From Planctomycetota bacterium (GTDB lineage Bacteria; Planctomycetota; Phycisphaerae; WQYP01), in NCBI GenBank assembly GCA_021819825.1, contig JAKAEZ010000010.1, positions 1 through 64,000 of the forward strand: a DNA stretch of 64,000 bases, written 5' to 3'. The notes below the pieces were generated by a model that did not search any database, was not told the origin of the DNA, and was given only the letters and a program-made list of their open reading frames with translations. Both the position numbers and the translations under genes were made by a program. This document shows positions 39,358 through 44,450 of the stretch, piece after piece (within the stretch, counting starts at the first letter, position 1; each line of letters begins with the position of its first letter).

Positions 39358-39470
39358 ATGAATGTTTCGCTTACATCTGAATTGGAGCGCCTGGTGCAGG
39401 CCAGAGTGGATAGTGGCCGCTACAACTCAGCGAGCGAAGTTGTGTGCGAGGCGCTGCGTCTGTTATCCTC
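39358..39470 (+). pseudogene. ParD-type antitoxin fragment
   Basis: The first 37 codons read MNVSLTSELERLVQARVDSG then RYNSASEVVCEALRLL, the ribbon-helix-helix part of ParD antitoxins, with a good ribosome binding site upstream. Right after ALRLL the frame turns into a serine run and unrelated residues and stops at 39585. No ParE toxin follows. The gene was evidently cut and joined to a different sequence. Confidence 0.75.
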
Positions 39471-39887
39471 ATCATCGTCATCGCGATTGCTATTCCCCGC
39501 ACACTTAAGCTTGAACACAGCGGCGCGGCCTACATCCAAGTGGCAGTGCCTAAAATCGCGAAGCATTGGAACCCGGGGGAACTGACTGAGCGGGCCAGCC
39601 CTGGCCTTCTCTCTTCACTGGGGCATCATAAACAGGTTGATCGGCTCTTTGTCCTTTTTAGGCGGCTTGGTGCTCTACGTCACCTCGGTAAGCCCAAGGG
39701 TTCGGTCTACACCGGCTATTTTCCCGGAAGCGGCGATGCAACCGTCGGCAACTACACCGTTCAAGCTGAATTCGCGAACGGTGCCGCAACCATTGATATT
39801 CAACTTTACCGGGCCGGAGGTTCTTGGCAAATTAACGGTTTTCACATTAACTCTAATGTGTTTCTGCCAGCGCTTGGAAAGAAATGA
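39465..39887 (+). pseudogene. Decapitated gene for a small membrane or secreted protein
   Basis: In another frame from the parD fragment, VILIIVIAIAIPRTLKLEHSG continues to a globular end (YTVQAEFANGAATIDIQLYRAGGSW, split: YTVQAEFANGAA, TIDIQLYRAGGSW) and stops at 39887. It begins in the middle of what looks like a membrane anchor. I do not recognise the family. The join with parD at about 39470 suggests a deletion or recombination that fused two gene fragments. Confidence 0.5.
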
Positions 39888-40265
39888 CAATAAACATGCA
39901 GGGTAGAGAGGCGAATCGGGGCGTGGGCTGATGAAAACCTTGATGTTTATCCCGTTCTTCGTGTGTCGCCAAGAGCCTCTATCTGTTACGCAACAGTGTA
40001 GACATTTCCTTGAGCATCCAGGTACGCCGGGATGGTGAAATCGCAACCGGCAATCCACCACCGGATTATCATCACGTCGCTCTCGTTGTCGTATCCGTTT
40101 GAGCCGCAGAATCCGCAGTGCTTTCACATTTACCCCAAGCCAATGGAGTTGGATATCATTCCGCGGCTTCCGTCGTATCACTGCCATGGCTCCGGACGAA
40201 ATAAAGGTACCAGGTACCTTTATCACCTCTGGGATCACTGATCACGGATCGATATCGTGACTGTC
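39888..40265. other. Intergenic region with a GGTACC palindrome
   Basis: No gene is convincing here. ATAAAGGTACC (40201-40211) pairs perfectly with GGTACCTTTAT (40213-40223) around one A. Short palindromes of this kind recur in planctomycete genomes, but only one copy is in this window. Confidence 0.55.
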
Positions 40266-40840
40266 TTATCCGTTGGATGCATCGCGATAGGTGTAAGTTG
40301 CGGCTAATCCTTTGAGCGTTTTGTTTTCCGAAATGGCGTCATGCGGAATAAGCAGATAGGTCCAGGGCTTGCCACCGTTTTTGCCTTCATGCTCTGTTGC
40401 GTATTGGCACCATTGGGTTGCCGCCGCCGCCTTGGTCTTTACGTCGACGGAGTTCAGGGGGAATCCCTTGACAATGAACTCACGCAATGTTTGCGTGGCC
40501 CAGATGCGAAACTGCGTGGCTTGGGCACTATTTACGCGGTAGCCAACGGATATGGTGGCGTCGAGGTTGTAAAAATCGATTTCGCGGGCAACTTCGCGTT
40601 TGCCCTCGCGTTGAACTATCCGGAATTTCCGGATAGTTGACGATTCCAGCAATTCGCCTGATTTATAAATATTTTGCAGGTGTTCGTTCACCGTGCGTAC
40701 GTCCACGTCGAAAAGCTCGGAGAGTTGCTTCTGGCTAAGCCAGAAGCTGTCGGCTTGGTACATGACCTCAACTCTTACCGCGCCGTCCGAGGTGCGGTAA
40801 GGATGATCTGGCCGTCACTGGGCTTTTGCGGTTCGGTCAT
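40266..40840 (-). pseudogene. Frameshifted RhuM gene fused to the tail of a restriction helicase
   Basis: From ATG 40840 the frame reads MTEPQKPSDGQIIL and then, one base off, YRTSDGAVRVEVMYQADSFW, the RhuM start; a lost T in CTT(T)ACCGC explains the shift. RhuM features continue (LFDVDVRTVNEHLQNI, IRKFRIVQREGKREV, EIDFYNLDATISVGYRVN, FRIWATQTLREFIVKGF). After KGF the protein changes to TKAAAATQWCQYATEHE and GGKPWTYLLIPHDAISENKT, the C-terminal end of type III/DEAD-box restriction subunits. The part from 40763 could still be translated. RhuM's role is unclear; it often lies in restriction and defence islands. Confidence 0.7.
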
Positions 40841-41772
40841 GGATCGGCCCTCTGGTTCGCGTTGGCGCGCCGGGACGGAGTCGCGGTGGAGGAATTTCGG
40901 GCTGCAGGTGTCTGGGTTGCTTTGGGTGCAGGCGGGACGCCTGCGTTACGGAGCTGTACCGCAGGCGTCCCGCCTGCTTTTGTTGTTGCAGACAAGATGT
41001 CTGCGTTACGGGCTATTGCGTTGGCGGGTGATGCCGACAAGATGTCTGCGTTACGGGCGCTGCTCCATGGCCAGTGCGCGGGATGACCACATAAACCGGC
41101 TGCCACGGGATTCTGTTCAATGTAGGCCTTGGTCGCAATAACTTCCTTTCGGTTGCGCATCACTCGGTCATAGGTTTCCTCCATCCAGAATTGGCCGGTG
41201 CGTTCAAGCAGGCCATTGGCCTGCTTGGCGGTGAACGATTTCCAAGAATGCATAATAGAGGAAAGTGTGACGGCCGCCGCTGGCGTCGTTAAGGCATGTA
41301 CATGATTGGGCATAATGACCCATGCGTGAAGGGTGTAGCGATCCCCATTGAAGTGATTCAGTGCGTCGGCTACGACACGCGCCACGTTCGGCTGGCTTAA
41401 CCAGCACACGCCCATGCCCTGATCCAAGGCGGCTTCGATGCGTTGCCGGCGCTGGTCTGCCAAATCAGGTGCATCGCGAAGTTCCTCTTCCCACTGCGCC
41501 AGAAGTTGCTGCGGGAGACTGTCGCAGAGGCGGAGCACCACATGAATCGGCCGATCTCCCGGATCCCAATGTGGCAGATAGCCCCGCGAATGCCAACCGT
41601 TCTTCTGAAGCGGATTTTTCCGTAACGCAGGCGTCCCGCCTGCTTTTGTTGCAGACAAGATGTCTGCGTTACGGGTTATCACAACCGCTTTGGAGGCAGG
41701 CAGGATGCCTGCGTTACGGGTTGGCCGAACCGCTTTGGGGGCAGACAGGATGTCTGCGTTACGGTTACTCAT
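40837..41772 (-). CDS. REP-associated tyrosine transposase with REP-encoded ends (RAYT2)
   Basis: The Y1 core spans about residues 60-230: HAWVIMPNHVHAL gives the HUH pair and TKAYIEQNPVAAGLC the catalytic Tyr region. On both sides the protein consists of translated REP units: NRNADILSAPKAV, RNAGILPASKAV, RNADILSATKAGGTPAL before the core, and RNADILSASPANA, RNADILSATTKAGGTPAV, RNAGVPPAPKAT after it. The ATG at 41772 has GGAGG 6 nt upstream (41779-41783), so the REP-coded N-terminus is probably translated. The stop overlaps the original rhuM ATG by 4 bp (ATGA at 40837-40840). Confidence 0.78.
   Translation of the reverse strand: MSNRNADILSAPKAVRPTRNAGILPASKAVVITRNADILSATKAGGTPALRKNPLQKNGWHSRGYLPHWDPGDRPIHVVLRLCDSLPQQLLAQWEEELRDAPDLADQRRQRIEAALDQGMGVCWLSQPNVARVVADALNHFNGDRYTLHAWVIMPNHVHALTTPAAAVTLSSIMHSWKSFTAKQANGLLERTGQFWMEETYDRVMRNRKEVIATKAYIEQNPVAAGLCGHPAHWPWSSARNADILSASPANAIARNADILSATTKAGGTPAVQLRNAGVPPAPKATQTPAARNSSTATPSRRANANQRADP
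40864..40875. repeat. Partial copy of the GGCGCGCC palindrome
   Basis: GGCGCGCCGGGA equals 12 of the 16 bp of the palindrome found in the tRNA-like units and beside RAYT1. It falls inside the last codons of RAYT2. Confidence 0.55.
40928..41049. repeat. REP cluster on the 3' side of RAYT2 (four units)
   Basis: Four 17-bp palindromes of the form GCAGrCrrGAyGyCTGC occur at 40928-40944, 40961-40977 (inverted), 40988-41004 and 41033-41049 (first base pair changed), each flanked by GTTACGG on one side. Units 2 and 3 form an inverted doublet of 44 bp, the REPIN arrangement. All are inside the RAYT2 reading frame. Confidence 0.85.
41627..41757. repeat. REP cluster on the 5' side of RAYT2 (four units)
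   Basis: Palindromes at 41627-41643 (inverted), 41651-41667, 41696-41712 and 41741-41757 with the GTTACGG flank. The first two form an inverted doublet of 41 bp. They encode the N-terminal extension of RAYT2. Confidence 0.85.
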
Positions 41773-41868
41773 TGTTTCCCTCCGCCATGTCAAACAGGGA
41801 CGAGCCATTTTCCGCCGCCTGTTTGCGGCGCTGGGCTTTGGTTCTGGGGTGCGGCGTGCCGTGTACCG

Positions 41869-41909
41869 CAGGCGTCCCGCCTGCTTCTGATGCAGGCAGG
41901 ATGCCTGCG
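41869..41909. repeat. REP doublet upstream of RAYT2
   Basis: GCAGGCGTCCCGCCTGC (41869-41885) and GCAGGCAGGATGCCTGC (41893-41909) face each other across 7 bp, as a REPIN. It lies between RAYT2 and the DUF4238 gene, outside the RAYT2 start chosen here. Confidence 0.85.
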
Positions 41910-42016
41910 TTACTTTCCGGCGCTTTTATCGGCAGATTCTGTATCTCCAGGCTGTAATCATCATGGCCCCATTCGCATTTGGCCAATACGGCTTTCGGGA
42001 TTTTTTTAACGGTCAG

Positions 42017-42898
42017 CTATCGGGAAATCTCACGCGGAGGCGCGGAGTTCGCGGAGGTATTTGGCGGCAAGATTTCTCCACGGAACTCCGGATACAGCTT
42101 TCGGAAGGTGGTTAGATTGGTGCGATGGTCAATGGTTGGGAAATCGGGCAATGGGGAGAATAGCCTCGGTGGAAAGCCCGTCGCTTCGGCACGGGAAAAA
42201 GCGGCTTGGATTTGCCAACCGTTAGCCATGGCAACCGCGAGCGTATCCAGCGCAACGTTTTTGGAGGAAGTCGCGCCGCGGATCCCGGATAACATGATGC
42301 AATCAGATGATAATGGAAATACAAAAATCCCCATCGTTGCTGCAAAATTTTCCGGCGTGAAGGGCAAAAATGTAGATCTCGCCGTCAGTATTGCCGGACA
42401 ATCTGATGTCACGAGGGTACCAGCCGACACCGGAAATTTGTATACCCGCCACCAGCGTTCGTACAGAAGTGCCACCAACTTTTCAATGGCAGGGGGCAAG
42501 CCTCGCGGAAGCAACTCCGCCCGGTCACTGGTTTTTGGCCTGAAATCTTGTGCCCGTAGTCGAAACGCGGGAAGCCGGGCAATAGTCAATGCCACAAACA
42601 CGACGAGCCGCGCACGCGATGCCAATGATTCAGGAAGTTTTCCACATTCGACAGTTTTGCCAAGGACCGGCGCAATCATTCCTTCGATATTGGCGAAGTA
42701 TTTCTCGACACTCATCGGGTCGGTGAGGCCATCATCGCGGTTGAAATCTTTTACCACGGGTTCTCTGATTGGGGTTGAGGGGCGAATTATTTGGTTCCGC
42801 ACGCCGATAACGTGGAACGGTCCGCCCTTTTTCCCCGTGGTGGTGAAGTTCTTGAGATAAAATCGTCCAACGATGTGGTGCCTATGTGGTTCGCTCAT
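42017..42898 (-). CDS. DUF4238-domain protein, second gene of the HEPN operon
   Basis: The 293-aa product starts MSEPHRHHIVGRFYLKNFTT, the H-H-I-x-R-F-Y-L-K-N-F signature of DUF4238, and has VSAGTLVTSDCPAIL in the middle, matching the conserved SD(N/C)P part. No membrane segment or signal is seen. The function of DUF4238 is not known to me. The ATG at 42898 lies inside the end of the upstream HEPN gene (17-bp overlap), which argues for coupled translation and a shared role. The frame is open to 42976, but only through the HEPN gene. Confidence 0.75.
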   Translation of the reverse strand: MSEPHRHHIVGRFYLKNFTTTGKKGGPFHVIGVRNQIIRPSTPIREPVVKDFNRDDGLTDPMSVEKYFANIEGMIAPVLGKTVECGKLPESLASRARLVVFVALTIARLPAFRLRAQDFRPKTSDRAELLPRGLPPAIEKLVALLYERWWRVYKFPVSAGTLVTSDCPAILTARSTFLPFTPENFAATMGIFVFPLSSDCIMLSGIRGATSSKNVALDTLAVAMANGWQIQAAFSRAEATGFPPRLFSPLPDFPTIDHRTNLTTFRKLYPEFRGEILPPNTSANSAPPREISR

Positions 42899-44294
42899 TG
42901 CCGATTTCCTTTGGCGGGTATTGCACAGGGCGGTAACCATGGGTTCCGTAATCGGTTTGATGGCCGCTATATCCAATCAGGTGAAAGATGAGCTGGTAAA
43001 AGAGGGTTCTCACCGATCCCATCCGGTCGAGGTGCCCTTGCAGATCCTCGTGAAGGGTGGACCAATCACCGTGGGCCGCCTGATTTCGCAGCTTTTTCCA
43101 AGCCGCAGTGTTGCGTCCCGAGACAACACCCCTTTGAGCCAGCGATTTGAGGCGGTCTCCTGCTCGTGCGTTGGAACGCGCACTTACAGCACCGATCGCG
43201 CGTTGCCTGATGTTGTCATCCCCGCACCAGCTATTGATGTGCTCTATTAGATCATTCACCGAACTGGTGTGCGCAGGGGAGGGTATGGCTACCTCTGGAT
43301 AAAACCTGATCAGAATGGCCTCTACCGCGACCACAAGCGTCAAGGTTTGGGCCTCCAGAGAGGCACCGCCCGATTGGGAAACCGCGAGCACCTGGCCCGA
43401 AAGCGGATGGAATGGTCTCTCTTTTTCCCGCAGGGTGTATTCCAAATACAGGCGAAAAAACTGCCAGAAATTTTCAATTGGAGGCGAAAACTTGATGAGG
43501 TATGGTGGCCACTGCCCGGAGTCGCAGGGATGCTGCCTCGGTGAGTGGAGGAAGAGCTGCGACTTTTCGCCGTTGAAGATGGTCGCCACCGACCAAGGTT
43601 CCGGTGCGCCGAGGGTAAAATGGAGAGCCTCCCAAATGCGCGACGCGAGGTGCGGCGGCGCGACCGCGCTGCTTTTTGCTCGCGCACGGAACCAGCCCGC
43701 GTGGTTGAAGATTTCGAACCCAAATTCGCAGGCCTGGAAGGCCTCCGCGCGGAGGTTGACCACATGCGGACTGTGGGCGTCATCCTCCACCCACTCTTGC
43801 AGCGCGATCTCCTTGCCGCCGGACGGGGTGAGCGGTAACTCGACTGCTCCACCTATGAATAGCTCCACCTGGCATCCAGCGATATCGCCGGTCGGCACCA
43901 AGCCTTGCAGCATGAGCTCGTGACAACAGGCCCGCACAACATACCCATCGCCGAGCACGCACCCATTCGGCGTTGGCCGCCAGATGTTCTCCGCGAGCCA
44001 TTTCTGGCCTCGCAGGTCGGTTGCTTCCAGTTTGAACACCCCTTCGCTGCTCACGAGCGTTCCCGGCAAGTAGCGTCTCCGCCCGTCATTTCCGGGCGCT
44101 TCCCGTAGCGATCCCTTCACGAAGATTGTGGCGGTGAACCCCCCGTCCGGCGATTGATCAACGTAACCTGGGCCGCTGAATGTTACCGGTTTTCCATGGT
44201 ACTGCCCGTTGAGCAATATATTGCTGCAGTCAAGTTTGAACGTTCCCTCACGCAAGGGACGTAGCACCTGGGCATCCAAATCCGAATCCAGCAT
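42882..44294 (-). CDS. HEPN-domain protein with ApeA-like architecture
   Basis: The 470-aa protein has a beta-rich N-terminal part (about 1-290) and an all-helical C-terminal part. The latter ends with AAWKKLRNQAAHGDW, where R403-x4-H408 is the RNase motif of HEPN domains, then a hydrophobic helix (LFYQLIFHLIGY). The layout, a sensor-like beta part followed by a HEPN domain with RN..AHG, resembles the abortive-infection protein ApeA; sequence likeness in the N-terminal part is not clear. AAGGAG stands 9 nt before the ATG. It is cotranscribed with the DUF4238 gene in an island of restriction and toxin-antitoxin debris. Confidence 0.7.
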   Translation of the reverse strand: MLDSDLDAQVLRPLREGTFKLDCSNILLNGQYHGKPVTFSGPGYVDQSPDGGFTATIFVKGSLREAPGNDGRRRYLPGTLVSSEGVFKLEATDLRGQKWLAENIWRPTPNGCVLGDGYVVRACCHELMLQGLVPTGDIAGCQVELFIGGAVELPLTPSGGKEIALQEWVEDDAHSPHVVNLRAEAFQACEFGFEIFNHAGWFRARAKSSAVAPPHLASRIWEALHFTLGAPEPWSVATIFNGEKSQLFLHSPRQHPCDSGQWPPYLIKFSPPIENFWQFFRLYLEYTLREKERPFHPLSGQVLAVSQSGGASLEAQTLTLVVAVEAILIRFYPEVAIPSPAHTSSVNDLIEHINSWCGDDNIRQRAIGAVSARSNARAGDRLKSLAQRGVVSGRNTAAWKKLRNQAAHGDWSTLHEDLQGHLDRMGSVRTLFYQLIFHLIGYSGHQTDYGTHGYRPVQYPPKEIGNERTT

Positions 44295-44450
44295 TGTCAG
44301 ATACTCCTTGGCCGAACCGCAAGCGCAATGCCTCCGCGATTTCCGGCGCTCGGAAGCGCCAACATGTGAGTAGCGCGGCCAAAACGCCGTTTTTATCAGC
44401 CTCTTGTAAATCGGATTGTTATTTCTTATGTTTTTCGATCAATTTTGTCG

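Follow-up and report, generated by a model that had tools for sequence, protein, structure and literature searches.

Two genes that overlap on the minus strand of a Planctomycetota contig raise the question of whether a HEPN protein and a DUF4238 protein form one fixed defence system or stand side by side as separate modules. A sequence-only reading of the window (the whole 64,000-nucleotide stretch of DNA analysed here) had proposed the former. The two genes were re-found at the positions it gave, both on the minus strand and with the same overlap:

42882-44294, minus strand: HEPN gene, ApeA-like by profile comparison; ORF of 470 aa with an ATG start.
42017-42898, minus strand: DUF4238 gene (PF14022); 293 aa from the ATG at 42898.
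42882-42898, minus strand: HEPN/DUF4238 overlap of 17 bp, with the DUF4238 ribosome-binding site inside the HEPN gene.

A Shine-Dalgarno-like AAGGAG lies 5' of the HEPN start, and AAAGGA lies 5' of the DUF4238 start within the 3' end of the HEPN gene, where the ribosome-binding region reads AAAGGAAATCGGCAATG; an alternative TTG start of the DUF4238 ORF gives a longer version of 319 aa. Since each gene has its own Shine-Dalgarno sequence, that of DUF4238 inside the HEPN gene, co-expression is likely, and the two genes are probably transcribed as one unit. The overlap with its internal ribosome-binding site amounts to tight co-expression, and a functional pair would show the same. Both genes have atypical codon usage (0.01 and 0.07 log-odds per codon, versus 0.13-0.27 in host genes), in line with recent acquisition.

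The HEPN protein carries the motif R403NQAAH408, i.e., R403-N404-x3-H408. R403, H408, W399, and E325 are invariant in all 15 aligned homologues, which come from Planctomycetota and proteobacterial plasmids, so the motif goes beyond a chance R-x4-H and the RNase motif proposed from the letters alone is genuine. The predicted structure (mean pLDDT 62.8, moderate confidence) has strands at residues 20-208 and mostly helices at 264-439, which agrees, at that confidence, with the beta-rich N-terminal part suggested earlier. The predicted layout is as follows:

HEPN protein, residues ~1-210: beta-rich N-terminal part (structure prediction).
HEPN protein, residues ~264-440: helical C-terminal HEPN domain (structure prediction).

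No solved-structure relative of this model was found, and the protein itself has no significant match to any Pfam, NCBIfam, PHROG, or PADLOC model. We rejected an identity with LmuA, the sole PADLOC match, as too weak for use (E 0.0063). Among the 15 homologues, two match HEPN_Apea (PF18739, best E 3.3e-5), two HEPN_MAE_28990 (PF18737), and two RiboL-PSP-HEPN (PF18735); the window protein matches none of these models.

For the ApeA side of an hhalign comparison with the HEPN family, we aligned eight of the phylum's PF18739 proteins. The two profiles match over 207 columns (E 1.4e-5, probability 80%), and their R-N-x3-H motifs are in register. The match is confined to the C-terminal half, at ~13% identity in the profile alignment, and the N-terminal part of the HEPN protein has no Pfam match to the ApeA NTD. 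The profile comparison and the predicted architecture support an ApeA-like HEPN RNase, as first proposed. In ApeA, the HEPN domain is preceded by a fused domain of ~300 aa that is mostly beta, and in some bacteria the genes are embedded in restriction-modification (R-M) operons (Anantharaman et al. 2013, PMC3710099). The window protein resembles ApeA (HEPN_Apea; ApeA-NTD1) in placing a HEPN domain with R-N-x3-H at the C terminus, after an N-terminal part that is predicted to be beta-rich, in being encoded by a single gene, and in its defence and R-M contexts (PMC3710099, PMC7699616). However, it differs from ApeA in its low identity, in having no significant PF18739 match of its own, and in the subfamily's own C-terminal motif, G-Y-x-G-x3-D-Y-S/G. 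To judge from these alignments, the family is a distinct, previously undescribed ApeA-like subfamily.

The most similar worked example of a HEPN mechanism is Tha from a S. aureus prophage, a non-specific HEPN RNase that responds to a phage tail protein as its trigger and has an Abi-like outcome (PMC11087260). Tha is likewise a single protein with a C-terminal HEPN domain and R-N-x3-H, but it has 301 aa and no recognisable N-terminal domain, and we compared it with the window protein at the level of the HEPN motif. The analogy is a functional one only. PrrC and RloC are HEPN RNases near restriction genes, and also near RhuM genes (PMC3710099); unlike the window protein, they are ABC-ATPase fusions, and no ABC-ATPase is present at the window locus.

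The HEPN family is rare and horizontally scattered. It was found in 7 other genomes among 392 sampled from the phylum, in 3 more genomes of the class (two belong to the same genus, and these include the 41%-identical homologue; a further match in the class was only partial and was left out of the family count), in 8 records of rhizobial and Pseudomonas plasmids, and in 3 of 348 genomes from the order of Rhodoplanes. A single cyanobacterial relative is broken, and phage records and viral contigs yielded no relatives.

The DUF4238 protein is a clear member of PF14022 (E 5.5e-22; 78.9 bits against a gathering cut-off of 27), with the conserved residues H8, E65, E72, R108, D166, and N226 all present. 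The near-invariant proline at position 11 is replaced by G, and the PADLOC model DUF4238-Pers (E 4.4e-10) aligns mainly over residues 1-113; on the basis of these two features, the protein may be divergent or decaying. Its predicted model (mean pLDDT 73) has no match among solved structures; in BFVD it matches a protein, itself uncharacterised, from Stenotrophomonas phage Smp131 (E 5.1e-7), a phage that we take to be P2-like. As neither protein yielded a fold clue from solved structures, we claim no chemistry for DUF4238.

The suggestion that the system was undescribed and the role of DUF4238 unknown had to be revised, because a single DUF4238 protein alone gives strong T7 resistance (Rousset et al. 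2022, PMC9122126) and PADLOC already holds DUF4238-Pers. The anti-phage activity was reported for one member of the family, from an E. coli P2 hotspot (PMC9122126). The window's DUF4238 protein resembles DUF4238-Pers (Rousset et al. 2022) in its PF14022 match over the whole domain and in the match of its predicted model to a phage protein. It is divergent from DUF4238-Pers, with a shortened middle region, and its gene overlaps a HEPN gene, whereas DUF4238-Pers is encoded on its own in a P2-like phage hotspot.

Do the two proteins nevertheless work as a true two-component system, in which DUF4238 senses infection and regulates or restrains the HEPN RNase, be it as sensor and effector or as toxin and antitoxin? 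The overlap with its internal Shine-Dalgarno sequence would fit this explanation, as would the way the two genes together, and no others, take up their chromosomal slot as a block. The neighbourhood counts speak against it. No DUF4238 gene was found at any of the 18 other HEPN loci inspected, including that of the 41%-identical same-genus homologue, and this HEPN occurred at none of ~40 other DUF4238 loci (24 other genomes of the phylum and ~16 viral contigs). For the HEPN family the rule of three puts the true adjacency rate under ~17%, and for DUF4238 under ~8%; contig ends truncate some of the flanks, but most loci show their immediate neighbours. When all fetched loci were scanned with profiles, HEPN and DUF4238 occurred together only in the window's own copies; not even close relatives yielded the pair. 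On these counts we reject the fixed partnership that the sequence-only reading had suggested from the overlap. The HEPN and DUF4238 families each persist alone, and DUF4238 is therefore ruled out as an obligatory antitoxin of the HEPN family. That a single DUF4238 is already a defence (PMC9122126) likewise weighs against a two-component system. At this one locus co-expression is the argument in its favour, and we consider such a system improbable here. Equally doubtful is its narrower form, in which translational coupling let an ApeA-like HEPN RNase recruit DUF4238 to sense or regulate for it, with this locus as the one case to date.

The neighbourhoods of the 18 other HEPN loci include several with defence genes within ~4.5 kb, which we give as examples and not as an enrichment statistic. 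On Rhizobium and Sinorhizobium plasmids the HEPN gene lies near CBASS-type cyclase and NucC-like (DUF6602) genes and an Abi-family gene; at these loci (L047 and L049), the Abi-family gene is followed by the HEPN gene (16 bp apart in Sinorhizobium), with the nucleotidyltransferase and DUF6602 pair nearby. One homologue adjoins a Pycsar-type cyclase, and near another there are a type II restriction enzyme and methyltransferase matches. At locus L013, a TIR-APAZ gene is followed by a second gene, which ends 76 bp upstream of the HEPN gene. From the pAgo matches, its 500-aa product is a probable short Argonaute, and the three genes, all on the same strand (L013:4015-8256), possibly represent a HEPN-associated short Argonaute operon.

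Where the cassette itself sits was resolved by comparing the slot among 8 genomes of the genus; its borders and the elements beside it are as follows:

42015-44391, strand not applicable: cassette borders, from blastn and junction alignments against relatives G459 and G508; sequence outside is shared, sequence inside is not.
41765-41986, minus strand: Mod remnant, the C-terminal 73 residues of a type III Mod methyltransferase, absent from the earlier reading.
40837-41808, minus strand: RAYT (REP-associated tyrosine transposase); NF047646 E 1.2e-21, just under the cut-off.
40266-40763, minus strand: RhuM-Res hybrid remnant, the RhuM N-terminal part (1 to ~110) joined to the last 63 Res residues.

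The slot measures 2.38 kb, contains just the HEPN and DUF4238 genes, and lies between topA and an NAD-epimerase gene. Homology to the relatives stops at 42014/42015 on the left and resumes on the right at ~44392 in G459 and only at ~44790 in G508. In two further genomes the topA-epimerase gap is ~2.1 kb (G493) and ~1.2 kb (G503). G459, which has 97% DNA identity to the window over the last kilobase of topA, has, beside topA, genes for an intact type III Mod and Res as well as a DUF1016 protein. Its epimerase gene is on another contig, where the neighbouring genes encode a TIR protein and two further proteins, one of 517 aa containing RSAAVH and one of 425 aa containing RNALAH. From these motifs, the slot may have been refilled repeatedly with HEPN-like genes. 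The RNALAH and RSAAVH proteins (L132:357-1634, plus strand; L132:2636-4189, minus strand) have no Pfam matches, and one of them lies in a TIR operon. Beside its epimerase gene, G508 carries a BRO-N (DinD-like) gene, Mod, and RAYT.

The Mod remnant is 96% identical to residues 540-612 of the G508 Mod and 85% identical to residues 556-628 of the G459 Mod. The left edge of the cassette abuts these last 73 Mod codons, so the cassette stands in place of most of Mod. The RhuM piece of the hybrid is well supported (PF13310, E 3.4e-26), and the intact type III Res of G459 matches hybrid residues 103-165 at 97% identity with its own residues 832-894; as the RhuM piece ends in the Res tail, RhuM coding sequence stands in place of most of Res. 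The parD fragment, the RhuM-restriction fusion, and the RAYT gene listed earlier were thus all recovered, the fusion now resolved into a RhuM N-terminal piece and a type III Res tail, and the Mod and Res remnants in a variable slot bear out the defence-island setting. The family match of the parD ORF covers residues 4-38 only, and the RAYT coding ends are repeat-derived, with a 63%-identical relative in the G493 island.

Several observations concern the surrounding sequence. The stretch 39461-40194, which overlaps the end of the parD fragment, is 92% identical in G503, a genome without the cassette, and is not inserted material. The RhuM piece (40266-40763) is 56% identical to a RhuM gene in G270, a genome of the same class (L062:7018-7338), which lies ~1.1 kb from another DUF4238 gene. 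At the left edge of the cassette, a GC-rich repeat-like stretch (42017-42075, minus strand) encodes the DUF4238 C-terminal tail NSAPPREISR; related stretches occur in G459 beside the 425-aa gene (L132:440-472) and in G508 inside Mod (L133:3588-3623), translated as SAASAPPRED. The left-edge stretch is not abundant in the genome, so we do not claim a repeat-driven mechanism.

These remnants bring a different role for the HEPN protein into consideration, that of an accessory to the type III R-M system, an RNase backup for when restriction fails, which would have been orphaned by the decay of Mod and Res. PrrC with its type I R-M system is a comparable arrangement. The closest homologue (L057, the 41%-identical one of the same genus) occupies another chromosomal site than the window copy, directly upstream of a type III Mod that is followed by RAYT and Res; the Mod and Res tails remain beside the window copy, and ApeA genes have been reported embedded in R-M operons (PMC3710099). 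However, most homologues lie beside CBASS, Pycsar, or pAgo-type genes or nothing recognisable, not beside type III R-M genes, and G459 and G508 keep Mod at the slot but have no match to the window HEPN. We therefore regard an R-M accessory as unlikely.

The same surroundings could mean that the cassette is itself a decaying, non-working remnant, as it lies among truncated genes and the DUF4238 tail is coded by repeat-like junction sequence. Yet both frames are full length, and the catalytic-type residues are all kept in both proteins. Close relatives are without the cassette, which therefore looks recently gained, and this argues against decay. We judge a non-working remnant very unlikely.

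The explanation that we consider probable is that two independent single-gene anti-phage modules form one stacked cassette within a defence hotspot. The cassette would have taken the variable topA-epimerase slot beside a type III R-M operon, of which only the Mod and Res tails are left. The beta-rich N-terminal half of the HEPN protein would probably sense some cue of infection, and its C-terminal domain, probably dimeric, would cut host and/or phage RNA via R403/H408. RNA cleavage would then stop the growth of the infected cell, i.e., abortive infection, the role proposed for the HEPN protein at the outset and the one we take as its likeliest function. DUF4238 would be the second module, acting independently against phage.

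Both modules are of known kinds of single-gene defence, the HEPN one representing a new subfamily. The locus thus adds an ApeA-like HEPN subfamily of which the window protein was missed by four family libraries and several members lie among defence genes. It also offers a clear example of defence-slot turnover, in which the same edges enclose different modules in near-identical genomes and the surrounding type III restriction system decays. The cassette provides a protein pair for learning the function of DUF4238 and, should the two proteins prove to be a two-component system after all, it would show two standalone defences merging into one.
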